DNA from: a virus | DNA: 54,011 nt | IMG/VR virus record: IMGVR_UViG_3300033145_000425 | Coordinates: 1-54,011 of that record | Reading direction: 5' to 3' (one strand) | Shown: piece by piece, positions 18,160 to 30,883 of the stretch | How positions within the stretch are numbered: the first letter of the stretch is position 1 | How the letters are laid out: every line of letters begins with the position of its first letter | The notes under the pieces: model-generated | What the model saw: the letters and a program-made list of their open reading frames with translations, nothing else | Told to the model about the DNA's origin: nothing | The model's database searches: none | Position numbers and translations under genes: made by a program

Positions 18160-19134
18160 TCACCCCTTCAGTGTTTTATATTCTGCCTTCACCATCATCT
18201 CGACCAAGTCTGTGAATTTCGTCTGTGCCTCCCACCCCAACTCTCTCTTGGCTTTTGACGCATCCCCCAATAACAACTCCACATCACTTGGGCGCTTGAA
18301 CTCTTCATCCGTCACTACACATTTTCTCCAGTCTAATCCGAGCTCGTCGAATGCCCATGCACAAAAATCCTGTACCGTATGCGTCTCCCCGGTGGCTATC
18401 ACATAATCTTCCGGCTTATCTGCCAGCAACATCATGTTCATAGCCTCTACATACTCTTTGCTGTATCCCCAATCCCTCTGTGCCCCAATATTCCCAAGAT
18501 ACAGTTTATCGGCTCTGCCAAGTTTTATCATTGTAGCGCCGTGTGTTATCTTACGTGTAACAAATTCCATGCCCCGCCGTGGTGACTCGTGATTAAACAA
18601 TATCCCGCTACATGCAAACATCCCATACGCCTCCCTGAAGTGCCTTGTAAGGTCAAATGCGGCTACTTTAGACACCCCATAGGGAGAACGTGGGTGGAAG
18701 GGTGTTTGCTCATTCTGCGGGGACACTGACACCTTGCCAAACATTTCCGAGGAACCGGCGAAATAAAATCGGCATTCCGGCTTCACGGTCTTAATGGCGG
18801 TGAGCATATTCAGCGTTCCGGTTATATTTATATTCAGGGTGGTGTGTGCATCCTCAAAGCTGTCAGCAACAAAGCTCTGTGCTGCCAGATGGTAACACTC
18901 GTCCGGCTTGAGCAGTTCTATCACACGAAACATACTGCCATAGTTCTCCACTGACCCGGCATGTAGAGACAACTTGCCACGCAGGTGATGTATCCTCTCC
19001 ATCCGTACACTTGGCTTCATGATAGCCGCTCTACGTACTACACCATGCACCTCGTAGCCGCGCTCCAACAATAATTCGGCGAGATAGCTTCCGTCCTGCC
19101 CGGTAATCCCTGTGATTAATGCTACTTTCCCCAT
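18160..19134 (-). CDS. gmd: GDP-mannose 4,6-dehydratase
   Basis: The product is 324 residues and an extended short-chain dehydrogenase. The NAD(P) motif TGITGQDGSY is at residues 8-17, GSSEMFG at 127-133 supplies the catalytic Ser/Glu, and Tyr152 and Lys156 in PYGVSK complete the active site. The segment ILFNHESPRRGMEFVTRKI is diagnostic for Gmd. The enzyme makes GDP-4-keto-6-deoxy-D-mannose from GDP-mannose in the cytosol. It is slightly short for the family but appears intact. With the next gene it should give a GDP-6-deoxyhexose. It is the last gene of the glycan cassette in transcription order. Confidence 0.95.
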   Translation of the reverse strand: MGKVALITGITGQDGSYLAELLLERGYEVHGVVRRAAIMKPSVRMERIHHLRGKLSLHAGSVENYGSMFRVIELLKPDECYHLAAQSFVADSFEDAHTTLNINITGTLNMLTAIKTVKPECRFYFAGSSEMFGKVSVSPQNEQTPFHPRSPYGVSKVAAFDLTRHFREAYGMFACSGILFNHESPRRGMEFVTRKITHGATMIKLGRADKLYLGNIGAQRDWGYSKEYVEAMNMMLLADKPEDYVIATGETHTVQDFCAWAFDELGLDWRKCVVTDEEFKRPSDVELLLGDASKAKRELGWEAQTKFTDLVEMMVKAEYKTLKG

Positions 19135-19139
19135 AGTTG

Positions 19140-20135
19140 TTATTCCTTAATCTTATGTTCCCAGTAGTCCAGTAAATCCACTAATGTTTGTGCTATCGGG
19201 ATTTTTGGTTGCCACCCGGTCAACTCTCGGCACTTAGTGCTGTCCGGTATCTGCACCGGGATATCTATTTTCCTAACAAAATTAGGATTGACTTCAAACT
19301 TAACCTTGTCCGTTAATCCTGCAAAGCCCATCATCAGATTCAGATAGCCACCTATCGTGTCGAGAGTATCGCCCCCGATATTATACGACTCACCCGGAGT
19401 AAATGTCTCCATGAGCATCTTGTATGCCCTGACACAATCCCTCACGTCCATCACGACCCGTTTACTACTCAATGTCCCAACGGCTATAACAGGCCTCTGT
19501 AGCTCTTTCTTTATCCGTACAATCTGGTACGCATCACCGGATATAGAAAACCTGAACCCGCGCCGTGGTCCTGTGTGAGAGAAAGCCCGGGTATTAAACA
19601 ACTGTAGCCCTTTCGACTGTGCCCTTTCGGTCACATATAAGTCCCCAGCCGCCTTACTCACCCCATACGGATTAACGGGTGCTATAGGAAAGCTCTCTGT
19701 GATCGGCTGATCATCTTCCGTCACTGCCCCATACACCTCGCTCGTGCTACAATTCATAAACTTACACGCTGGAGAATATTTCTCTATGAGGTCAACCAGA
19801 TTTATCGTGCCAAGCGCATTAGTGGCAAAGGTATACCTCGGTTGCGCAAAGCTTGTCGGAGGATGCGATTGGGCGCCAAGGTGATATATTTCATCGAACG
19901 TGATTTTAGAGAATATTCTATCCAATGACGCATAATTGCCTAAATCACCCTGTACCCATTCTATCTGACTGAACACACCGTCTGTCACCACATCCCTGAT
20001 ATCGTTCTCACGCCCATTAGATGCCCTTATAAGACCATAAATCTTCAGATCATATTCTGGTACACAATTTATAATACAGTTTGCCAGATGCGGCCCGGCG
20101 AAGCCTGTAATACCTGTTATGAGTATATTCTTCAT
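19140..20135 (-). CDS. GDP-4-keto-6-deoxy-D-mannose reductase-like SDR
   Basis: The product is 331 residues. TGITGFAGPHL binds the cofactor, STSEVYG (130-136) and Tyr157/Lys161 in NPYGVSK form the active site, and NTRAFSHTGPRRGFRF matches the R-F-H-T-G-P substrate loop of GDP-6-deoxy-D-mannose reductases (Rmd). Paired with gmd, the likely product is GDP-D-rhamnose; GDP-6-deoxy-D-talose or another epimer cannot be excluded from sequence alone. GDP-L-fucose synthase is less likely because its usual signature is absent. It is separated from gmd by only five bases. Confidence 0.8.
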   Translation of the reverse strand: MKNILITGITGFAGPHLANCIINCVPEYDLKIYGLIRASNGRENDIRDVVTDGVFSQIEWVQGDLGNYASLDRIFSKITFDEIYHLGAQSHPPTSFAQPRYTFATNALGTINLVDLIEKYSPACKFMNCSTSEVYGAVTEDDQPITESFPIAPVNPYGVSKAAGDLYVTERAQSKGLQLFNTRAFSHTGPRRGFRFSISGDAYQIVRIKKELQRPVIAVGTLSSKRVVMDVRDCVRAYKMLMETFTPGESYNIGGDTLDTIGGYLNLMMGFAGLTDKVKFEVNPNFVRKIDIPVQIPDSTKCRELTGWQPKIPIAQTLVDLLDYWEHKIKE

Positions 20136-20481: not shown

Positions 20482-21372
20482 TCACCAAGCTACTAATGTG
20501 TAAGGTTTACATGGTCTATACGCCTCGTCTTTCACCAAGCTGCCAGTCCATCTTCCCCACAGCACTATGTGATAATCCGGGCGTATAGAGGTCAGATATC
20601 TGTAAATCAAAAAAGCATCCATATATCTGTGATATGTTTCCACAATCAGTTTTGGCTTACACCGCTTTATAGTGTTCATAGCCCCTATCAGGCAGTCAAA
20701 CTCGCTGCCCTCTATGTCCAGTTTAATAATATCTATAGCCGGATTTCCATTCTCCGCGACAACAGAATCGACAGTTCTTATGTTTATATCCAGTTGTTTT
20801 CCATGCCCTTCCATTCTTCCGTGCACTGCCGACCCTTCCTTATTAAGGTGGAGTGTGTTTTTTGCATCAAGGCTACCCACCGCCTGATATATTTTTAATT
20901 TATCTTTATTCCCGAAGTTTTTGCGTAAAGCCTCCACCATAATTGGGAGTGGCTCAAAGGCAAAAACACGAGATGCACCACGATTAAAGCAATCAAAAGT
21001 ATAAAACCCCTCGAATGCTCCACCATCAATCACTACATCCCCCGGCTCTATTTGGAAAAACTGATAGGAATGTGCATTTATAGCAGGTGGGGCAAACGTG
21101 TTAAAGAACACCATTCTAATTACCTTTTCTGACACCTCTTGCGAAATATAAAGTTCGCCATCCGACCACTTGAAAGTATTCAGCCCTTGTCTCTTGCTCG
21201 GTTTGTATGAAACGCCGTGCAGCCTGCTAAAGCCGTCTACAGTTGCGCTAAGTGTAGCACCATCAGTTGTCACGCCCGTGGAAAACTTGTATAAGTCATC
21301 CGGCAGACTCACATTGGGTGGGCAATAGTCAAACTTAATATCCCCAAAACACCCCTCAGACAGCTTAGCCAT
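20482..21372 (-). CDS. FkbM-family SAM methyltransferase
   Basis: The product is 296 residues. DVVIDGGAFEGFYTF (112-126) is the SAM-binding motif I, VFAFEPLPIMVEALRKNF the acidic motif, and IKLDIEGSEFDCL (about 216) the FkbM signature. Members methylate sugar hydroxyls in glycans and polyketides. Residues 1-100 are an extra N-terminal domain with no recognised family. In this cassette it probably O-methylates a transferred sugar. It is coupled to the next gene by TAATG. Confidence 0.88.
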   Translation of the reverse strand: MAKLSEGCFGDIKFDYCPPNVSLPDDLYKFSTGVTTDGATLSATVDGFSRLHGVSYKPSKRQGLNTFKWSDGELYISQEVSEKVIRMVFFNTFAPPAINAHSYQFFQIEPGDVVIDGGAFEGFYTFDCFNRGASRVFAFEPLPIMVEALRKNFGNKDKLKIYQAVGSLDAKNTLHLNKEGSAVHGRMEGHGKQLDINIRTVDSVVAENGNPAIDIIKLDIEGSEFDCLIGAMNTIKRCKPKLIVETYHRYMDAFLIYRYLTSIRPDYHIVLWGRWTGSLVKDEAYRPCKPYTLVAW

Positions 21373-22235
21373 TATAATCCCCCTACCGCCAACGCACCCA
21401 GCACTTGGCTATATGACATCTTTGGGATATGGGCATAGTGGCTATTCGGCGAACAGTTCACAATCTTAATCTTCTCCGGCTGATATTTAAAGTTCTTATT
21501 AAATCTTACGGTGCCTACTCCAACTCCAGTCGCTCGCTTTTCCCCTTTGAAGAACCCGGGATCATAGTACGTATCCAGCATCTTCTGTTGATTCCACCGG
21601 ATTATTTCCAGTTCCGATTTTCCTTTCATCGTTGGCTCCAAATATCCGTCTGCTCCAAAAAGTATAAGGTGCTCCACCTTTGCTTTAATCAATTCATCGA
21701 TAATGACTTCGAGTGAGATCGGATATGCTGGTCTACAAAGCAGCCTTGGCATTAGATACAGCTTATCCCGGAAGTCACCCAGCATCCAGTTTCTATCCGC
21801 CTCATTTAGCCATGTCATGGAGCATAGCGTGGTCATCAGTAAGTTCTTATTGTTGCGGAAAAGAAACTCCTTAATATCATGCACCCTAAGCGGCATATCC
21901 TGTTCCGACATGCAGAAAACAATATCGAAGCACTTGTTGACTTGGCTTAAAATTTGGTGTTCGATGGCGCTGAACCGATTAATCCCCATGTAGCAGAGGT
22001 CGAAGCTGTTAAAGCACTCGATCTGATCCTCAAGCTGCTTAATTGAGCCGCCGTTTAGCAACAGCGCTACGGTACGACCACCTATAACGTCGGTGAGTCG
22101 CTTAGTAGTTGCATCGTATTCCCGACCAATGCGCGCTTTCATGGTCGCGATTGACTTATGGTCAATGGGATATGTCCACCCTTCCGGTTTATTCAAATCA
22201 GGTGTCACGAGGAAATCTGTAGGTTTCTTGCTCAT
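21372..22235 (-). CDS. DUF115-like (MptE / flagellin-modifying Maf-type) protein
   Basis: The product is 287 residues. VALLLNGGSIKQLEDQIECF followed by FDLCYMGINRFSA fits the G-G-S and GINR motifs of the DUF115 superfamily, as does VEHLILFGADGYLEP (compare GFDM/GADG). DUF115 proteins include flagellin glycosylation Maf factors and sialyltransferase-like proteins. A second copy of this fold forms part of the 705-residue cassette protein. The role in sugar transfer is inferred from family and neighbours. Confidence 0.6.
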   Translation of the reverse strand: MSKKPTDFLVTPDLNKPEGWTYPIDHKSIATMKARIGREYDATTKRLTDVIGGRTVALLLNGGSIKQLEDQIECFNSFDLCYMGINRFSAIEHQILSQVNKCFDIVFCMSEQDMPLRVHDIKEFLFRNNKNLLMTTLCSMTWLNEADRNWMLGDFRDKLYLMPRLLCRPAYPISLEVIIDELIKAKVEHLILFGADGYLEPTMKGKSELEIIRWNQQKMLDTYYDPGFFKGEKRATGVGVGTVRFNKNFKYQPEKIKIVNCSPNSHYAHIPKMSYSQVLGALAVGGL

Positions 22236-23371
22236 GGGAACTCCTTACACATAGGGTCATCAGTATTTACGAATAACTTCTCACATTGAATATTATAATC
22301 ACCAATGCAGCACCGCGTTTTACATTTCTCGGGCGTATCGCCGTATAACAGTTGCCTATGCTTCTTCCCGCCCCAGATATCAGCTATTAACTGCGGATCC
22401 CCCGCACATGACCCCAGGCAATACTCCGGCCTGTAGAATTGGTCGTCACAGAAATAAACATTGGCATCCGGCGCAATATGTATCTTCAACGGTGCCCCAT
22501 AACATTGCCCAAACGGCTTGGAATGCGTGAAGTCCGCATTGAACTTGTGCATGACCGTGAACACGTTAAACTTGTCTGTAGCGAGCTTATGACACTCCTC
22601 GAACTGCTCAAATATGAGCTTCTGGTCGAACTCATCCACTTTGGTCTTATGGTTCTTCATACCCTGGTGCATCGTGTCCATTGGACGTACAATAAAGTCA
22701 TGTACGCCAATTTTCTTCGCTTTCTTACACGCAGTGAGTATCTCGTGCTGGTTCAACGGTGATATCAGAAATTTGTACCCCACCGAACAGTTCACTGAAC
22801 GCCTCACCATGTCCTGTAGATTCCACATCACCCACGAGAACAAGTCCTTGCCCTTTATCTTCTCGTATGTCTCGCTGGTGCCAGCATCCACACTTATCCC
22901 CACCCATCTTACATGCCTGCCAATAAGTTTGCTGTAGTCGTCATTATCATACGTACCATTACTAAGTAGCCCGGTGGTCAATCCCATCTCCGCGGCGTAC
23001 CCTATAATGCGCCCAAACATTGGATGCTGGGTCGGTTCACCACCACCTGCCCAGCAAATACTCTTTACGCCCCACCCCTCAAGGTAGTCAATTAGCTTAT
23101 ACACAAACTCCACCTCAAGCTCGTCCTTATGGCGACGATACATAGCCGAGTTACACCATGCACAATTCAGATTGCATTTGAGCGTCAGGTCGATACGGGC
23201 CTCTATCGGTGGCAGAAGCATATATCTCTTCGCTATCCGCTTGTAGTGTTCTGCGTAGAGCAGCCCTTTCCAGTTGTTGAAGCTATTGAACGTGTTCTTA
23301 TCAGACCATTCCCGGATGAATGTTTCGCTACCCTTATGTCCGTGATGCCCTGTGTGTCTTTCCTGTATCAT
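22232..23371 (-). CDS. Radical SAM protein with C-terminal cysteine-rich (SPASM-like) region
   Basis: The product is 379 residues. LTLKCNLNCAWCN carries the CxxxCxxC motif (Cys66, 70, 73) that binds the [4Fe-4S] cluster, and SICWAGGGEPTQHPMFG is the GGE motif. Seven or more cysteines after residue 290 (GQCYGAP, VYFCDDQF, YCLGSCAG, KCKTRCCIGD) suggest extra clusters of the SPASM/Twitch type. The substrate is unknown; a sugar, a peptide or the glycan acceptor is possible given the neighbours. The ATGA overlap with the next gene indicates co-translation. Confidence 0.88.
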   Translation of the reverse strand: MIQERHTGHHGHKGSETFIREWSDKNTFNSFNNWKGLLYAEHYKRIAKRYMLLPPIEARIDLTLKCNLNCAWCNSAMYRRHKDELEVEFVYKLIDYLEGWGVKSICWAGGGEPTQHPMFGRIIGYAAEMGLTTGLLSNGTYDNDDYSKLIGRHVRWVGISVDAGTSETYEKIKGKDLFSWVMWNLQDMVRRSVNCSVGYKFLISPLNQHEILTACKKAKKIGVHDFIVRPMDTMHQGMKNHKTKVDEFDQKLIFEQFEECHKLATDKFNVFTVMHKFNADFTHSKPFGQCYGAPLKIHIAPDANVYFCDDQFYRPEYCLGSCAGDPQLIADIWGGKKHRQLLYGDTPEKCKTRCCIGDYNIQCEKLFVNTDDPMCKEFP

Positions 23372-23386: not shown

Positions 23387-24037
23387 TTACGTTTGTCTTG
23401 AGCGTATTACAGGCAGTATACCTCTACCTGCGGGGTCTCTTCCGCACAATTCCCCGTGCAGGTTTAGAAACTCAATATGTCCACATACATGCACATCAAT
23501 CCCCTTTGTATTTAATCCATAGAATCGCTTTCTCCACCACTCTATAGGCATTACCGTCTTATGTATACCAAGATTGGCAGTGCTGGGTATTGTTGCGATG
23601 CAGTGGAATGTTTTCACTCGGGTAATTCGATATATTTCTTTTATTGATGCCATAACTGTCTCCGTTATGAGATGCTCCATTACATCAAATGAGAACGTAT
23701 AGTCGAAGGCATTATCATCGAACGGCATATCCCACAAGGGTGCTTCTGTAAATGAGCAGGCAGGAATAAACTCATCGTACTCATGCCCGGTCTTGCGTTT
23801 AGAGTTAAGCCCAGCCAACGATATATCTACCCCAGTGCAATTACGTCCATGGCTGCATATTACCCGCGTAGGGTCGCCGTGCCCACAACCTATATCCAGA
23901 AGTTTGTCGTCTGTTTGGGATGTAGCCACTATATACCCCACTATTTCACGCCAGTATCCAGTTGTATCGCAATACTCATTGTTATACATATAATCGTATA
24001 AGTGTTTTTCATACTCGCCATGTTTTTCCTGTGTCAT
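23387..24037 (-). CDS. SAM-dependent methyltransferase (cassette paralog D)
   Basis: The product is 216 residues of class I methyltransferase (Methyltransf_11 type): LLDIGCGHGDPTRVI is motif I, TGVDISLAG motif II, APLWDMPFDDNAFDYTF motif IV with DVMEH after it. A family-specific tail, GIHKTVMPIEWWRKRF, is shared with three other domains in this cassette. Parts of its DNA are nearly identical to the 25609-26181 gene, so the two duplicated recently. It probably methylates a cassette glycan. Confidence 0.85.
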   Translation of the reverse strand: MTQEKHGEYEKHLYDYMYNNEYCDTTGYWREIVGYIVATSQTDDKLLDIGCGHGDPTRVICSHGRNCTGVDISLAGLNSKRKTGHEYDEFIPACSFTEAPLWDMPFDDNAFDYTFSFDVMEHLITETVMASIKEIYRITRVKTFHCIATIPSTANLGIHKTVMPIEWWRKRFYGLNTKGIDVHVCGHIEFLNLHGELCGRDPAGRGILPVIRSRQT

Positions 24038-24897
24038 GGGAATGTCTCCCTCTCCCGGTGCATCCCCATAGCAACATAGTTCTTACCAGTGACGAGGTGG
24101 CGTGACTCCTCCTGTGCTTTGGCTAAATCGCCAATCAAATCAAAGTTAAGTCCCCAGTGGTATCCGCGTTTCCCCCTCTCGTGCAACATATCCTTCTCTC
24201 TTTTTGTAGAGCCGTCTGTTCTGCTTTTTTTGCTTACCTCGTCCTCAGTCTCCTTTGTATGCGGCGCCCAATGGTCTATCAGTATTTCCGGGCAATACCA
24301 TACAAGACTGTAAAATCTCGCAACCGCTATGAATTCCACTTCCCAAACAACACGTTTATAGTCCGGGCAAAATATTGGCTTGTCTGGGTGCGCTTTATAG
24401 TGGTTTTTTATCACCCCGGAACCTATGAAGTGTGGGTTTCCGTATGAACTCTGCCATGGCCAGTGTTTTGGGTTATTTGCTATTTTTATACCAAGAATTC
24501 CATTATATGACACTATCTTTGGATGATGTTTGTCCCTTTTAGGGAATCTCAGCATCATAGTGTTTGCAGCAAGGGTGTATGTATCTTCATATACACCTAC
24601 ATCATCCCACAACCATTCAAACATGTCTGCTTCCGATGTTCTGAAGAACTCACCTATCATAAGAGGTGCTTTGGTATTATAGTCCTTAACTACCTCGATA
24701 TTGTACCACCCGTTGTTGCCAAAGCGCTTAAAAAAGAAGTCCTTCTCTTCTTCCGTATCGACCCAGTGAGTTAGATTTATGGATTCCATCTCCTTAACAT
24801 TAGCGAATGCGTGGTTTCTCGCTGCAATGACTCTCATCAGATTGCCTTGCGCCATAGTCTGTCTCTGAAAACTTCTAAAAAGTATCTGTAGTTTCAT
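24034..24897 (-). CDS. Glycosyltransferase-like protein (paralog of the adjacent GT)
   Basis: The product is 287 residues. Its C-terminal half aligns with the neighbouring GT-A protein: FCPDYKRVVWEVEF versus YCPEYYRFYVDTEM, DHWAPHTKETEDE versus QHFHPNAPGGTLDD, and GYHWGLNFDLIGD versus GYLWGKDLNIVG. The N-terminal half is divergent, with EADMFEWLWDDVGVYEDTY in the place of the usual D-D motif. It is therefore a diverged family-2-like glycosyltransferase or an inactive partner. The start follows AAAGGAGATGGA. Confidence 0.6.
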   Translation of the reverse strand: MKLQILFRSFQRQTMAQGNLMRVIAARNHAFANVKEMESINLTHWVDTEEEKDFFFKRFGNNGWYNIEVVKDYNTKAPLMIGEFFRTSEADMFEWLWDDVGVYEDTYTLAANTMMLRFPKRDKHHPKIVSYNGILGIKIANNPKHWPWQSSYGNPHFIGSGVIKNHYKAHPDKPIFCPDYKRVVWEVEFIAVARFYSLVWYCPEILIDHWAPHTKETEDEVSKKSRTDGSTKREKDMLHERGKRGYHWGLNFDLIGDLAKAQEESRHLVTGKNYVAMGMHRERETFP

Positions 24898-24907
24898 TCC
24901 ATCTCCT

Positions 24908-25612
24908 TTATCGTATTCCTACTATATTAAGGTCTTTCCCCCACAAATATCCCTTTGCCTGCCGGGCTTTCCATATTTCATTATCCCACTTCTGCTTCTC
25001 ACCACGGTTTGCATAATGTGTATCATCCAAAGTCCCACCCGGGGCATTTGGATGAAAATGCTGCATTCTGGCTTCCTCACAAAAGGCAAATTTATTTACG
25101 AGTTTAGAATACATGCCCATTTCGGTATCAACATAGAACCGATAGTATTCAGGGCAATAAGCCTGTCCATCGGGGAATCGTTTATGAAATTTTCTACCTA
25201 CGAGTCTGAATCCATATTGGGTAATCGCCTCCGGCCAACTTGGGGGATAATTAGTGACATTGAGCCCAATAAGCCCATCGCCGTCCGGGAAGTGTTTATG
25301 TAGGGCATTGGCCGCATTGACAAGACAATCTACATCCAGAGCACAGTCATCACAGAGAAAAAGGATTAGCCCTGCATCACTCTGTTTAACAAAGTTATTC
25401 CAACACGTACTCACCTTGCTATAATCGGTCTGCTGGATAACTACACGGGCATCATGCCTGAACTGTTTGCTATATCTGGGCATTTCGTTGAAATCCGTCC
25501 ATAGGATATGCACACGAACATTTGGGTATCTACCGTTCAGGATGGACTCCACACAGACCGTCAATTTCTCTGGTCGATGAAGTGTGGGTATTGCAATGTC
25601 AATTCTTTTCAC
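24908..25612 (-). CDS. GT-A fold (family 2-like) glycosyltransferase
   Basis: The product is 234 residues. IDIAIPTLHRPEKLTVCVES is the GT2 N-terminal nucleotide-sugar binding strand, and LILFLCDDCALD carries the acidic D-D motif that holds the metal and sugar nucleotide. GDGLIGLNVTNYPPSWPEA follows as an acceptor region. The start is a GTG at 25612 that overlaps the stop of the upstream methyltransferase (GTGA), 7 nt after AGGAG; longer in-frame codons upstream belong to the overlap. The donor may be the GDP-6-deoxyhexose made by the cassette. Confidence 0.78.
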   Translation of the reverse strand: MKRIDIAIPTLHRPEKLTVCVESILNGRYPNVRVHILWTDFNEMPRYSKQFRHDARVVIQQTDYSKVSTCWNNFVKQSDAGLILFLCDDCALDVDCLVNAANALHKHFPDGDGLIGLNVTNYPPSWPEAITQYGFRLVGRKFHKRFPDGQAYCPEYYRFYVDTEMGMYSKLVNKFAFCEEARMQHFHPNAPGGTLDDTHYANRGEKQKWDNEIWKARQAKGYLWGKDLNIVGIR

Positions 25613-26181
25613 CCTACTCTCCTTTTGTTGACATAATGGCAAAGCAACCATAATTCTTCTGGATTAACAATATGTGTATCTACTTTTTTATTATTTTGTT
25701 CCTTAAATTTCTTTTTCCACCATTGAATGGGCGCGATAGTTAAATGCACATTCGGATAATTTGGGTCATCGATTGTTGCGATGCAATGGAATGTTTCTAC
25801 TCGGGTAATTCGGTATATTTCTTTTATTGTTGCTTCCACCATTGTTGGAGGTATATGTTCCAGAACATCGACAGAGAAAGTGTAATCAAAAAAACTATCG
25901 TCAAACGGCATATCCCACAAGGGTGCTTCATAAAATGCCGAAGCTACTACTTCTGATGGTAAGCCACGTCGGGTAATATCTATACCTTTACAGTTGAAAC
26001 CACGTTCCCTAAGCCATAAAACGGTACTGCCGTGACCCGTGCCCATATCAAGTATATGGTCTCCTTTACGCGCCGTGTTTTTTATGAACTCGGCTGCATC
26101 TATTGCATAACCAGTGCGGGGATATGACCCTTCATATAACTCTAAATATTTCCTTCTCTCTTGTTCGGTTAATGAAAACAT
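25609..26181 (-). CDS. SAM-dependent methyltransferase (cassette paralog C)
   Basis: The product is 190 residues. ILDMGTGHGSTVLWL is motif I (with a Thr where Cys is usual), GIDITRRG motif II, APLWDMPFDDSFFDYTF motif IV and DVLEHIPP the following helix. The cassette-specific VHLTIAPIQWWKKKF tail is present. Stretches at 25772-25833 and 25904-25929 nearly match the 23387-24037 gene at the DNA level. The strong site GGAGGAACTTATCT precedes the start. Confidence 0.85.
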   Translation of the reverse strand: MFSLTEQERRKYLELYEGSYPRTGYAIDAAEFIKNTARKGDHILDMGTGHGSTVLWLRERGFNCKGIDITRRGLPSEVVASAFYEAPLWDMPFDDSFFDYTFSVDVLEHIPPTMVEATIKEIYRITRVETFHCIATIDDPNYPNVHLTIAPIQWWKKKFKEQNNKKVDTHIVNPEELWLLCHYVNKRRVG

Positions 26182-26897
26182 AGATAAGTTCCTCCGTGAG
26201 ATAAATCAGGCACATGCCTGGGATCCCTTTCGTGTATTTTCAGATGCCTTGCTAATTTTTCCTTATTATCAAAAACCCTACCGCATGTGCATTTAACCTC
26301 AATGTCTATTTCCTGCTTTTTTTTTTCATACAATATAAGAAATTCCGCGCAGTCAACTACTAACCACTTAATACTATTCACATTACGCCGACCGAACATT
26401 CCTCTCCACCAGTTCACCGGCTTCACGGTTAGATGCAACCCTTCTTTACAGCCACTCGGTTGTGTACTCACCACATGAAGTGTCTGCTTGCTCGTAACCC
26501 GGTATATCTCTGCGATAACATCTGGTATTAACTCTGGCGGTATATGTTCCAACACGTCCGCCGAGAATGTATAATCAAACTCATTATCCTTGAACGGGAG
26601 TGCCCACAGGGGGGCTTCGGTAAACATTTTAGAAAAGGTACTCTCATTAACACTGGACTTTACGCCCACGAGAGTTATATCCACACCGAAAATGCTACAT
26701 TTATTCTGTCGCAAATAGTCCACTGCCACACCGCGCCCACATCCCATATCCAGTATTTTATCACCCGGTTTAGCTGTCCACCGCACGTACTCGCTAATAT
26801 GCTTCTGGTAGCCGGTAGAGCCGTACTTCTGCGCATGTAACCGCATATATTTACCATGCTCAGCCTGTTCAATCTGTTTAAGTTTAGTGGATTCCAC
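26169..26897 (-). CDS. SAM-dependent methyltransferase with C2H2 zinc-finger tail (paralog B)
   Basis: The product is 242 residues. The methyltransferase core is ILDMGCGRGVAVDYL, FGVDITLVG, APLWALPFKDNEFDYTF and DVLEHIPPE, then LHLTVKPVNWWRGMF. After it, near residues 200-225, CTCGRVFDNKEKLARHLKIH has the spacing C-x-C-x12-H-x3-H of a C2H2 zinc finger with its conserved F and L. A zinc finger fused to a small-molecule methyltransferase is odd and may bind the acceptor protein or DNA. The start is taken as GTG 26897, 7 nt after GGAGG; a TTG at 26915 is the alternative. Confidence 0.8.
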   Translation of the reverse strand: MESTKLKQIEQAEHGKYMRLHAQKYGSTGYQKHISEYVRWTAKPGDKILDMGCGRGVAVDYLRQNKCSIFGVDITLVGVKSSVNESTFSKMFTEAPLWALPFKDNEFDYTFSADVLEHIPPELIPDVIAEIYRVTSKQTLHVVSTQPSGCKEGLHLTVKPVNWWRGMFGRRNVNSIKWLVVDCAEFLILYEKKKQEIDIEVKCTCGRVFDNKEKLARHLKIHERDPRHVPDLSHGGTYLCFH

Positions 26898-27234
26898 CCT
26901 CACTCCTCCGTTCAATATCTACACCATCATACTTATAATCATATATTTCTATACATTTAACATCAGTGATAGCACTAAATTTATGCCAGGTGCCTAATGG
27001 AATCTCAAATTGCCGGACATCATCCAAGATTACTATAGTACATCCAGGTTTATCTAACCCCCATAGGGTCAGTTTAAGCCGACCGGCAATGAGATAGAAG
27101 ATATTACTTTTCTGTGCATGGCGATGTTCCGAACAATATCCACCCTTTTTAATCTCCAAGTAGTGTGTGGATGTCGTGCCATTACGAAATAGTTCGGTCG
27201 TCTGTCCCCATACTTTTTCTTCTGGCTGCATCAT
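26884..27234 (-). CDS. Cupin-fold protein (RmlC-like)
   Basis: The product is 116 residues. CSEHRHAQKSNIFYLIAGRL and QFEIPLGTWHKFSA are the two cupin motifs; His in EHRH and His in GTWHKF could hold a metal. Small single-domain cupins beside sugar genes are often sugar isomerases or epimerases, or the sugar-sensing part of larger enzymes. Which applies here is open. The start shares ATGA with the stop of the 705-residue gene and the end overlaps the next methyltransferase. Confidence 0.78.
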   Translation of the reverse strand: MMQPEEKVWGQTTELFRNGTTSTHYLEIKKGGYCSEHRHAQKSNIFYLIAGRLKLTLWGLDKPGCTIVILDDVRQFEIPLGTWHKFSAITDVKCIEIYDYKYDGVDIERRSEGGIH

Positions 27235-29348
27235 TTTCCACCATACCCCGCCATGAACATCGGTCTGGCCATAACAACTGCATCCTCTTTACCATTGCTT
27301 TTATTCACGGCTGCAAACTGGTCTATCCACCACTCAATAGGTTTCACAGTCATATGCAAAACCACACCATTCAATATACCATCAAACAGAGCCACCACAT
27401 TAAATGTCTTCCGTTTCGTTATTCTGAATATTTCCTTAATCGATGCCGATATCTTCTCCGTCGGTACATGCTCCAAAACGTCCGTAGATACCGTGTAATC
27501 GAATTGGTTATCATCGAACGGCATATCCCATACCGGAGCCCCGAAGATGCCGTGTAGGCCGTGTGGCACTCCCTCCAGTGATATATCCACGCCCATACAG
27601 TCAACACCCGCTTCCCGGAGCCCTATCACCGAAGTACAATCGCCACAGCCAATATCCAATACTTTATCACCTTTATTCATTGTTTTTAACACATGCTGGA
27701 TTAAGGGTTGGGCGCACTTCGATGGTCCCACATAATGCCCCTTATAGCTTAGCGACCAGCAATCATCGTACTTTTTCTTTTCCCTCTCTACAACCGGGTC
27801 TTTAATGCCAACTTTATTCCGATACATTCTACTTGCCTGTCTTTGCTCAATCACCGGATACCCCTCCTCCATCATAAGATCATAAATCTGACAATAGGAA
27901 GCAGGTATATTATAAAATTTCAACTGGCTTTCCCATTTACTGAGCACATCCGCCATCGTCTGCATTTCGATGCGATCAGGATGCTCTTCATTTAAACGCA
28001 CCCACGTATGAACAAATCTTCTAACCTTGTCGATGTTCTTCAGATATATTACCGCATTGGCAAGCTGTTTATCCGTTCTGCGCCCGTGTGTATACTTTTT
28101 CCAATCAATTTTATGCACCCCAAGATCAAAATCAGCATTGTCAAATATGGCAGGGTACTGATGTATAGATGAATCCACATCCAGCCACAGAATATTCCGT
28201 TTGGGATACTTCTCCATCATCCCAGCGATAAATTTAGCCTTGTACTGCGTGTTCTTTTGCCAAGAACCAAAACTCGATATGCCCTGTATGTCGTGCTCAA
28301 GTCCAAATAAGTGCAATTCCTTGATTAGGCGGTCCGCCTCTTTCTTATAACCGGTCTCACGTGTATAAAATGACACCACTATAGGTCTGTCAGGTTTATT
28401 AGAAAGTACCGTCCGCAGATCACCGAATGGGAAACACTTCAATCCAGACTTCCGGTTAAGATTTACTACTTTGATTCCAGCCTTTGCCAATACCGGTGCG
28501 AATCCTGTGATTTCCTTAATATACTTTGCGTAAACACTTTCGCCATAATCTAAGGGATACCCGGAGTGCCACCATTTCTGTTTACCGCTCTTATTTCCCT
28601 GCATATCAAAGCCCAGCAGATAAATTTCCTTTACACCCAACGCTGCTGCGAGATTCAGTGCACCGTAGCCGGAGTTATTTTTGAATGATAAATGCTTCGT
28701 AGTGCCAATCCTGTGATCTGTTCTGGAATCCACGCCAATTAAAGAGAAATCTGTGGGATAAATTGTCTTGGAGAGAGACATCCACGCCTTAAAACCCTTA
28801 TAAGACTCAAACTTCTTTCTGGACGCTTCCCCAAGTTTACCGAGCACGGCCCACCCAAACAACTGCGGGTCAACCCCAAATAGAATGCTGGGGTCAAGTA
28901 GTTCATAAGCACGATTAATACCAATTACAAGCTCGCCAGCTAAGCCATCAAGGTTGCACCGCTTCAGGCTTGGTCCACCCCCTATAATAAAACACCTTCT
29001 GCCTTTCCATGTGCCATCGGGGACATAGTTCGCAAAGATTTCTGGCCCAAGTGATGCCCGCTGCTCCTGCATCCGCAGTTTACGAGCCGCCATTACAGGT
29101 TTGCGACCAGCGGCGGCGGCGGCTAATTTACGAGCGGCTGCCTTTCGTCTCGGTAAATCACTTATAGTAAGTATCTTTGCCGGGGGTATATCGGGTAGCA
29201 ACTCAATAGGCTTTATTCTCCGCCCACGAGAAGGCAGGTTGCTTATAGTTATTAACTTTGGTTCTAATTCAGCCTTTTGTTTTACCATTTGCTCCTCAGT
29301 AGGTCGCTTACGTTCCCCTTTTTTCCGCATATCGGACATTCTCAGCAT
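27231..29348 (-). CDS. Three-domain DUF115 / glycosyltransferase / methyltransferase fusion
   Basis: The product is 705 residues and the first cassette gene. Residues 1-100 are basic with a repeated LITISNLPSR / ILTISDLPRR motif and an Ala/Arg helix. Residues ~114-315 are DUF115-like (CFIIGGGPSLKRCNLDGL, VIGINRAYELLDPSIL, IYLLGFDMQG). Residues ~320-505 look like a GT-A sugar transferase, with VVSFYTRETGYKKEA and the acidic ILWLDVDSSIHQYP (DVD at 390-392). Residues ~540-680 are a methyltransferase (VLDIGCGDCTSVIGL, APVWDMPFDDNQFDYTV, DVLEHVP), homologous to three separate cassette genes. Fusing transfer and methylation suggests consecutive steps on one glycan. It starts just after the capsid terminator. 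Confidence 0.82.
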   Translation of the reverse strand: MLRMSDMRKKGERKRPTEEQMVKQKAELEPKLITISNLPSRGRRIKPIELLPDIPPAKILTISDLPRRKAAARKLAAAAAGRKPVMAARKLRMQEQRASLGPEIFANYVPDGTWKGRRCFIIGGGPSLKRCNLDGLAGELVIGINRAYELLDPSILFGVDPQLFGWAVLGKLGEASRKKFESYKGFKAWMSLSKTIYPTDFSLIGVDSRTDHRIGTTKHLSFKNNSGYGALNLAAALGVKEIYLLGFDMQGNKSGKQKWWHSGYPLDYGESVYAKYIKEITGFAPVLAKAGIKVVNLNRKSGLKCFPFGDLRTVLSNKPDRPIVVSFYTRETGYKKEADRLIKELHLFGLEHDIQGISSFGSWQKNTQYKAKFIAGMMEKYPKRNILWLDVDSSIHQYPAIFDNADFDLGVHKIDWKKYTHGRRTDKQLANAVIYLKNIDKVRRFVHTWVRLNEEHPDRIEMQTMADVLSKWESQLKFYNIPASYCQIYDLMMEEGYPVIEQRQASRMYRNKVGIKDPVVEREKKKYDDCWSLSYKGHYVGPSKCAQPLIQHVLKTMNKGDKVLDIGCGDCTSVIGLREAGVDCMGVDISLEGVPHGLHGIFGAPVWDMPFDDNQFDYTVSTDVLEHVPTEKISASIKEIFRITKRKTFNVVALFDGILNGVVLHMTVKPIEWWIDQFAAVNKSNGKEDAVVMARPMFMAGYGGK

Positions 29349-29361
29349 ATTTGCTCCATTT

Positions 29362-29396
29362 ATAAAACAGGGGAGCCGGTGGTGGCGACCCCCCTG
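29362..29396 (-). terminator. Rho-independent terminator after the major capsid gene
   Basis: Read on the minus strand, CAGGGG and CCCCTG pair around a GC-rich loop and are followed by GTTTTATAA. It lies directly after the capsid stop and before the glycan cassette. It should reduce transcription into the cassette, leaving lower read-through expression or an unseen promoter. Confidence 0.75.
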
Positions 29397-29419
29397 CCGG
29401 GCATTGCGTTGTAAAAAAC

Positions 29420-30481
29420 TTAGGCGGTCTTACAACGCACGATTTGTTTGAGTTCCCCGATTGCGGCACCATACCATTGCCACCCAACGGCGATATCCGT
29501 AAATGCTTCGATATCAAAATCGCTGAATACCGTCAAATCCATACGGTTTGCCGCTTGGATTTTCTTGCCGGGTATCATGACATAATAATCGGCGGTATTG
29601 GTGAACATAAGGGTGTATACGGGGCGCACATTATAGTTTAATTGAGTTGTGCTACTGGAGAACGGCTGTTGTACCATTCCGAGAGCGCGCTTGATTCGTC
29701 CGACATTCTGAATCGGCGATACAATTAAGAACTCGCTATTCGGCGTTACGCTCATCCCTAAATCCTGGAGACGTATCAGGATATTCTCACAAGCTTTGTT
29801 AATCGTGTTAATATCTCTGATAGGCACATAGTTCTCATTAGTGTTGGGAACAGCACCAGTAACAGCCTGCCATGAGAGGTCATAAGTTGTGGCTATGGCT
29901 TCAATTAAGTCATAATGATCCTGAGCCTTCGACTCAAAAGCCTTGTTCCTGAACTCAATAGCATTATCCTCAATCGTCCAGTATTCTTTGTTCATAAACA
30001 AACGCCTTGACCATCCAAGACCTGCACCATACATATCGAGTGTAACAGTGACCTTATCACCGGACATTTTATATATCTGTACCTTCTGGCCTTCGGGCAC
30101 AAGATTGAACCTCAACCCGGAGATAACATCGAGAATGTCGAAGCTATCTCGGTTGGAATTACGCAAGTCTATCATCTTAAAGGCTTGCTCCCAACCACTA
30201 TCGAAATATAATGTCTGGTGATATTTGTCAAGAACCTCTAATACACTTGCCGGAAAGTCCTGTGAAGTGGCGAATGCTTGGATAGCAGCCCGTCCGGCAC
30301 TCACATCGCCAGTGCTGTAAAACGCTTGAGCCGCTGCCCTGAAGGGGGCAGTTGTGGGTTGCACCAGAAAACTATTGAGCGCTCCCCTTATCATACTTCT
30401 CGCGCTGGGGTTTTCAATTCCACCCATGCGTTCAACGAGTCCCCAATCGGAGACTATTTTTCCTCTAAAGCTTTTCATCAT
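29420..30481 (-). CDS. Major capsid protein
   Basis: The product is 353 residues, the right size and place (after decoration protein, before a strong terminator) for an HK97-fold capsid subunit. The N-arm is helical (RSMIRGALNSFLVQ), then LDVISGLRFNLVPEGQKVQIYKM and ENYVPIRDINTINKACENIL fit the E-loop, P-domain and spine-helix order. The C-terminal VFSDFDIEAFTDIAVGWQWYG resembles the A-domain end. The ribosome site AAAAGGAGACA is strong. The family is inferred by position and composition, since capsid sequences diverge widely. Confidence 0.85.
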   Translation of the reverse strand: MMKSFRGKIVSDWGLVERMGGIENPSARSMIRGALNSFLVQPTTAPFRAAAQAFYSTGDVSAGRAAIQAFATSQDFPASVLEVLDKYHQTLYFDSGWEQAFKMIDLRNSNRDSFDILDVISGLRFNLVPEGQKVQIYKMSGDKVTVTLDMYGAGLGWSRRLFMNKEYWTIEDNAIEFRNKAFESKAQDHYDLIEAIATTYDLSWQAVTGAVPNTNENYVPIRDINTINKACENILIRLQDLGMSVTPNSEFLIVSPIQNVGRIKRALGMVQQPFSSSTTQLNYNVRPVYTLMFTNTADYYVMIPGKKIQAANRMDLTVFSDFDIEAFTDIAVGWQWYGAAIGELKQIVRCKTA

Positions 30482-30490
30482 TGTCTCCTT

Positions 30491-30883
30491 TTAGGCTACG
30501 ATTTCCATGGCGCCCATCCAATGGACAAGAACCGTTTCGTCCCCAACGGACGGTGCTTCAAGAACAATACCACAAAGATTAAGAGTACCTGCTGCGGATG
30601 TGACCTCATTGTTAACAACGTCAGCATACACCTTGCAACCCACTTGGAACTGCGCGAGATTGCCTGATGTAACTTCCACACAAGGTACTAAAATCTTAGC
30701 GGCCCAGTACACAACGACTACTTGTGCGTCTATAGCTACAGTTTCCACTACAACCCCCACTATATCCTCTACTGTCACTATCTGCCCAGCCGTGTAAACT
30801 TCCTCGGCAGTGAATTCAAGTGCAGCATACGGGGAGTTATTCGTGGAACTGCGTAATTTAAAGTCTGTTCCTCCAAGAGCCAT
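30491..30883 (-). CDS. Capsid decoration / cement protein (DUF2190-like)
   Basis: The product is 130 residues. FTAEEVYTAGQIVTVEDIVG with VVVVYWAAKILVPC has the strand pattern of DUF2190 proteins (GEVV..GD.VG.A ... GV), which decorate capsids or act as minor head proteins. It is encoded directly before the major capsid gene in transcription order. It would be an exposed, plausible target for the glycan cassette. Confidence 0.72.
   Translation of the reverse strand: MALGGTDFKLRSSTNNSPYAALEFTAEEVYTAGQIVTVEDIVGVVVETVAIDAQVVVVYWAAKILVPCVEVTSGNLAQFQVGCKVYADVVNNEVTSAAGTLNLCGIVLEAPSVGDETVLVHWMGAMEIVA

Follow-up and report, generated by a model that had tools for sequence, protein, structure and literature searches.

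What does a tailed phage do with a gene that joins three transferase domains in a single polypeptide and lies directly behind its major capsid gene? The question arises from a viral DNA of 54,011 nucleotides (IMG/VR record IMGVR_UViG_3300033145_000425), analyzed at its full length and referred to here as the window. Its minus strand carries, at positions 27231-29348, one uninterrupted frame of 705 amino acids plus stop, which begins with an ATG at 29348, has a Shine-Dalgarno-like GGAG a short way 5' of the start, and ends at 27231.

Architecture and integrity of the fusion gene

The encoded protein consists of an N-terminal tail, a DUF115/Maf-like domain, a GT-A glycosyltransferase (GT), and a class I methyltransferase (MT). 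An initial annotation, made from the sequence alone, had proposed that the three domains share one polypeptide, and this is borne out by profiles for each segment or its relatives, by the GT-A fold predicted for the middle region, and by the presence of the fusion in three contigs. The same tail-DUF115-GT-MT layout is encoded by the independent contigs L013 (691 aa) and L088 (683 aa). That a sequencing error had joined two genes is ruled out by the fusion in L013 and L088 and by selection across both domain junctions: in a comparison of the window with L013, in which synonymous sites are near saturation, pN/pS was 0.27-0.29 within the domains, 0.34 and 0.35 across the two junctions between them, and reached 0.69 in the tail. 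A whole-protein search of viral contigs returned no close relatives, and we found no description of a DUF115-GT-MT phage protein in the open literature.

The DUF115/MptE-like, Maf-like domain spans residues 101-318 (28395-29048, minus strand) and contains an invariant GGGxS, NR, D, and H261. It scores below the 34.6-bit cutoff of PF01973 (MptE-like/DUF115), at 21.2 bits for the protein and 25.4 bits for the domain alone, and 17 of 19 family members match PF01973 at E<0.01; judged by sequence, the domain is thus at most a distant relative of PF01973. A phage family named alpha-2,3-sialyltransferase matches it at 3e-24, and a DUF115 profile searched against PDB sequences retrieved only sialyltransferases (E about 0.005). 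The AlphaFold domain (model range 98-397), confidently predicted, aligns over 200 residues with the Maf flagellin glycosyltransferase of Magnetospirillum (5mu5; Z 16.3), a protein-directed enzyme with which it shares the DUF115 fold and the conserved GGGxS; sequence identity in such fold matches is 12-13%. Unlike in Maf, the domain here is encoded by a phage late gene and is joined to a second GT and an MT. Maf/GT42 relatives use CMP-nonulosonate, whereas neither a CMP-nonulosonate pathway nor a NeuB/PseI-type match was found among the cassette proteins tested; supply by the host is possible. A separate DUF115-like gene, placed by the initial annotation at 21372, was detected neither by Pfam nor by the profile built from the DUF115 family.

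The middle domain (residues 319-514; 27807-28394, minus strand) is a Nucleotid_trans-like GT, assigned from the AlphaFold model, the DxD motif, and the profiles of its relatives. AlphaFold gives a confident GT-A fold with pLDDT mostly >90, as the annotation had anticipated, and both aspartates of the DVD motif (residues 390-392; 28173-28181, minus strand) are invariant in 24 sequences. PF03407 Nucleotid_trans and the GT34- and GT8-like enzymes have the DxD and the GT-A fold in common with this domain; PF03407 is matched by 14 of 24 relatives (best 4.7e-9) but not by the window domain, which alone has no convincing Pfam match and differs in being fused between DUF115 and an MT. The best solved structural match is domain 1 of A064R from the chlorovirus PBCV-1 (Z 18.6, rmsd 2.8, 182 aligned residues, 12% identity), followed by other GT-A proteins such as GT6 enzymes and glycogenin at Z about 15-16, and structural relatives also occur in other giant viruses and in uncultured phages. 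A GT profile of 24 relatives found no convincing relative among PDB sequences and did not retrieve A064R.

The C-terminal region (residues about 527-705; 27234-27770, minus strand) is a class I SAM-dependent MT, with a Methyltransf_11 match at residues 564-646 (E 2.4e-10; 41.3 bits against a cutoff of 21.2) and VLDIGCG at motif I. Its AlphaFold model, built from two aligned rows only, is poor, and the domain call rests on profiles. Structure prediction thus recovered two of the three expected folds with confidence.

A glycan cassette behind the fusion gene

All genes of the cassette lie on the minus strand. A WbuC-like cupin (26884-27234) overlaps the fusion gene by 4 nt and is followed by an MT (26169-26915) paralogous to the fused one. 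Two further paralogues lie at 25609-26181 and 23387-24037; all three, called as separate MTs in the initial annotation, are confirmed as such, with 42-44% identity to the fused domain. The two separate GTs of that annotation fared less evenly: the GT2-like protein at 24908-25651 is weakly supported by families, and its neighbor at 24034-24897, a probable GT with no family match, is recognized only through its relatives, being distantly related to the 24908 protein family. Next come a radical SAM protein (22232-23371) conserved in related cassettes, an FkbM-family MT (20482-21372), an SDR of the NDP-sugar dehydratase/epimerase type (19140-20135), and a GDP-mannose 4,6-dehydratase-like protein (18160-19134; 400 bits, TIGR01472 cutoff 415). 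Relatives of the radical SAM protein were also seen in the glycan cassettes of L007, L013, and L015, with a similar gene in L088. A membrane-spanning segment is present in none of the cassette proteins, the highest 19-residue hydropathy being 1.65. Given the dehydratase-like protein, the SDR, the MTs, and the lack of a membrane protein, taken together with the fusion gene itself, cytosolic glycosylation of the capsid protein is the simplest reading.

Linkage to the capsid gene

The gene directly upstream of the fusion (29420-30481, minus strand) encodes the major capsid protein (MCP), which matches PF25209 Phage_capsid_4 with 30.0 bits (cutoff 27), as do 9 of 11 relatives; its AlphaFold model has a pLDDT of 41.5. 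It is preceded by the cement protein gene (30491-30883; PF09956), and the same-direction order reads terminase, portal, putative protease/scaffold, cement, capsid, and fusion gene, with protease, portal, and terminase assigned by gene order and sequence without a profile. No gene intervenes between the capsid gene and the fusion gene, and relatives of the latter likewise directly follow a homologous capsid gene. Between the two genes, a GC-rich hairpin followed by a T-run (29365-29398, minus strand; z -1.3) resembles an attenuator, and close relatives (L005-L014) have a similar hairpin at the same place; it is probably an attenuator through which the cassette is expressed less than the capsid.

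In some relatives, an intein-like insert of about 330-350 aa interrupts the terminase large subunit in frame, at one of two sites: after about residue 233 in L012 (767-3232) and near residue 469 in L014 (3617-6151) and L008 (2148-4685). The window terminase has no such insert, and the insert-bearing relatives gave no Rfam intron match.

A basic tail with a repeated motif

Residues 1-100 (29049-29348, minus strand) form a basic, low-complexity tail with 26 K+R and 10 D+E, predicted to be disordered (pLDDT about 41-57). The internal repeat noted by the initial annotation is present in the DNA as 19 nt, 84% identical, at a spacing of 81 nt, and in the protein as three copies of a short motif: MLRMSDMRKK at residues 1-10 (29319-29348; p 0.0055 against the shuffled tail), LITISNLPSR at residues 32-41 (29226-29255; p 0.0005), and ILTISDLPRR at residues 59-68 (29145-29174), all on the minus strand. 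The third copy is near-invariant in the core clade, with I59, L60, and R68 invariant in 12 aligned sequences. The tail outside the motif diverges (21-42% identity) whereas the motif persists in repeated copies.

We trained a motif matrix on the core clade and applied it to tails outside that clade. The motif was enriched in 14 tails adjoining the same capsid family (Fisher 2e-12, a value that overstates independence since the tails are related) but not in 8 tails elsewhere, away from this capsid family (Fisher 0.64); motif scores also differed between capsid-family tails and others (Mann-Whitney p 0.002, likewise weakened by relatedness). Five loci adjoining the same capsid family (L015, L032, L042, L044, and L093) have no significant motif. 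When sought in the other genes of the window and its relatives, the motif was present solely in the fusion protein. Tails of at least 35 residues occur in every gene adjoining this capsid family and in few others, with L030, L036, and L037 as exceptions; L092, L095, L097, and L098 have tails without such a capsid gene within the short flanking stretch. The suggestion that the tail might hold the protein to the capsid or to DNA therefore gains ground in its first half, as the motif tracks one capsid family and the gene directly follows that family's gene, and finds no support in its second.

Module exchange at the DUF115/GT joint

All 11 contigs found by the capsid protein carry a tail plus DUF115 gene directly after the capsid gene. 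Most of them continue with two GT2-type domains; L013 instead has GT-MT and L015 a lone GT, and the L005 and L011 contigs stop before this part of the gene. A scan with the GT alignment yielded 58 loci. DUF115-GT fusions adjoin the same capsid family in L015, L029, L032, L035, L040, L041, and L044. In L035, a separate MT gene begins at the fusion's end, and in L032 (5212-7218) DUF115-GT is fused to an unrelated MT (Methyltransf_24, 5e-9), which is a second, independent joining of GT and MT. The L049-L066 group has DUF115 and GT as two adjacent genes. In genome contigs searched for prophages, the DUF115 alignment found ten loci, including L116 and L117, where a DUF115-GT gene adjoins a capsid homologue; the capsid alignment found none. 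The modular states are thus DUF115 alone, DUF115-GT, DUF115-GT-MT (with two unrelated MT types), and DUF115-GT2-GT2, so that unfused, partly fused, and fully fused forms are all visible among relatives. The fusion is therefore one arrangement of these modules among several and not unique to the window phage.

Comparing the window with L006, L007, L009, and L014, identity is 70-77% for MCP and 65-68% for DUF115, dropping to about 20% for the remainder, which by sequence is unrelated after residue ~310-318 and consists of two GT2 domains instead. The opposite gradient is seen against L088, with 50% for MCP, 47% for DUF115, 69% for GT, and 58% for MT. In the GT tree, the three fusions (window, L013, and L088) form a clade with 100/100 support. 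The MCP tree rejects a grouping of the window with L013 (p-AU 3e-4) as well as a clade of all three fusions (3e-6); the latter clade is also rejected by the DUF115 tree (p-AU 0.005). The groups in these tests were named after a first look at the trees and identities. Since the DUF115 tree unites the window and L013 (97/93), it was the whole fusion gene that moved between those two, and the GT-MT half between them and L088. The catalytic C-terminal half has thus changed capsid backbones, and the joint lies near residue 310-318. The cassettes show the same pattern: most of the window cassette recurs in L013 in the same order, and those of L007 and L014 are different. By eye, LicD-like and cytidylyltransferase-like genes seem to be present after the fusion gene in L007 and L014, which suggests phosphodiester-linked decorations paired with the GT2-GT2 version of the fusion.

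Proposed function and alternatives

We consider it probable that the fusion protein acts in the cytosol as a capsid-glycan synthase, docking on the capsid through its tail and carrying a catalytic end that can be swapped; the acceptor, the donors, the order of steps, the docking, and the channelling are what we infer. The disordered basic tail would dock on the new major capsid protein, or on an assembly partner, through its repeated short motifs. The DUF115/Maf-like domain would attach a sugar, and by analogy with the Maf flagellin transferases this is most likely the one nearest the protein; the GT-A domain would add a second sugar; and the MT domain would cap the glycan with a methyl group. 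The sugar, probably a GDP-6-deoxyhexose, would be made and completed by cassette enzymes, among them several paralogous MTs that methylate it. Exchange between phages would affect the fusion gene from residue ~310-318 onward together with the genes behind it, altering the capsid glycan, and would leave the tail and DUF115 linked to the capsid gene. A more specific version is possible, and we offer it tentatively: that the repeated peptide is specific to the capsid family and tethers the synthase in the manner of encapsulin loading, and that the half behind DUF115 is an exchangeable cartridge switching the capsid glycan.

Might the cassette instead alter a host surface glycan or LPS, for exclusion or serotype change? 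O-antigen loci also carry GDP-deoxyhexose enzymes, GTs, and MTs, and the cassette has a WbuC-like cupin. We judge this very unlikely, however, because no membrane protein, and hence no hint of a flippase or polymerase route, was seen in the cassette, which lies within the late structural block and whose first gene is linked to the capsid gene. The synthase might also decorate another virion protein, e.g., cement, tail tube, or tail proteins, with the motif binding that protein or an assembly factor. The cement and tail genes belong to the same late block, and mycobacteriophages carry glycans on both capsid and tail tube subunits (cited in PMC12619734); but the fusion follows the capsid gene itself and its tail motif tracks the capsid family, which makes this alternative unlikely. 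Glycosylation of phage DNA would fit the basic tail and has a precedent in phage GTs that hypermodify DNA (also cited in PMC12619734). It is nonetheless highly improbable, as no DNA-modification partner was noticed among the cassette genes, the tail has a conserved hydrophobic-acidic-basic motif beyond its positive charge, and the closest folds are protein- and glycan-directed.

A last alternative bears on the docking step only: the tail may be a solubility or translation-coupling leader, its motif kept by common descent. The tails are indeed related, and, as listed above, some relatives adjoining the same capsid family have no significant motif. Against this stands the persistence of the motif copies in an otherwise diverging tail, and we regard a mere leader as somewhat unlikely.

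Comparison with known systems

The closest functional precedent for a capsid-glycan synthase of this kind is A064R of PBCV-1, in which two GT domains and one MT build the end of the major-capsid glycan (PMC9614988). Like the window protein, A064R (638 aa) is a viral polypeptide with two GTs and a C-terminal SAM-dependent MT, and PBCV-1 also encodes a GDP-mannose dehydratase, as the window cassette has a GDP-mannose dehydratase-like gene. It differs in belonging to an algal virus, in acting on an N-linked glycan, and in that no such tail is described; its domain 2 is of a different GT family, and sequence comparison detects no similarity between its domain 1 and the GT domain of the window protein. 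The fusion may thus work like A064R by analogy, homology being unsupported by sequence, and the substrate channelling on a single glycan suggested by the initial annotation would fit this precedent. In mycobacteriophages, phage-encoded GTs decorate capsid and tail subunits; neither a DUF115-GT-MT fusion nor a tail with such motifs is described in the literature we found. Chloroviruses are documented to have multi-transferase capsid-glycan enzymes, and a comparable three-transferase layout is now seen in tailed phages; what is new is the capsid-gene linkage, the candidate targeting tail with a capsid-family motif, and the module exchange at the DUF115/GT joint.

For the tail, encapsulin cargo-loading peptides such as LTVGSLRR (PMC5959871) provide a parallel, being likewise short motifs at a disordered enzyme end paired with a capsid-type shell. 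In a post hoc comparison, the score of LTVGSLRR was similar to that of the tail motif (random 8-mer 3e-5, permutation 5e-4). The shell here, however, is not an encapsulin, and a peptide docking inside the shell would be ill placed for decorating its outer face. Two questions become testable with this system: how, in the absence of a secretory pathway, a virus brings its own glycan enzymes to the capsid, and whether phage head glycans are swapped like serotypes. If the tail motif binds the capsid protein, it would also offer a handle on how enzymes reach phage heads. If the cartridge reading is true, a phage lineage could change its capsid glycan by exchanging half a gene and the cassette behind it.

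Two further loci carry related domains. An uncultured 462-kb phage (L016:5248-7755; LR756500) encodes an 836-aa protein with the same GT domain and a C-terminal GT group 1 domain, the N-terminal part appearing DUF115-like by eye. In a Manatee Spring phage (L017:19995-20549; MW202621), a related MT gene lies directly after the annotated major capsid gene.
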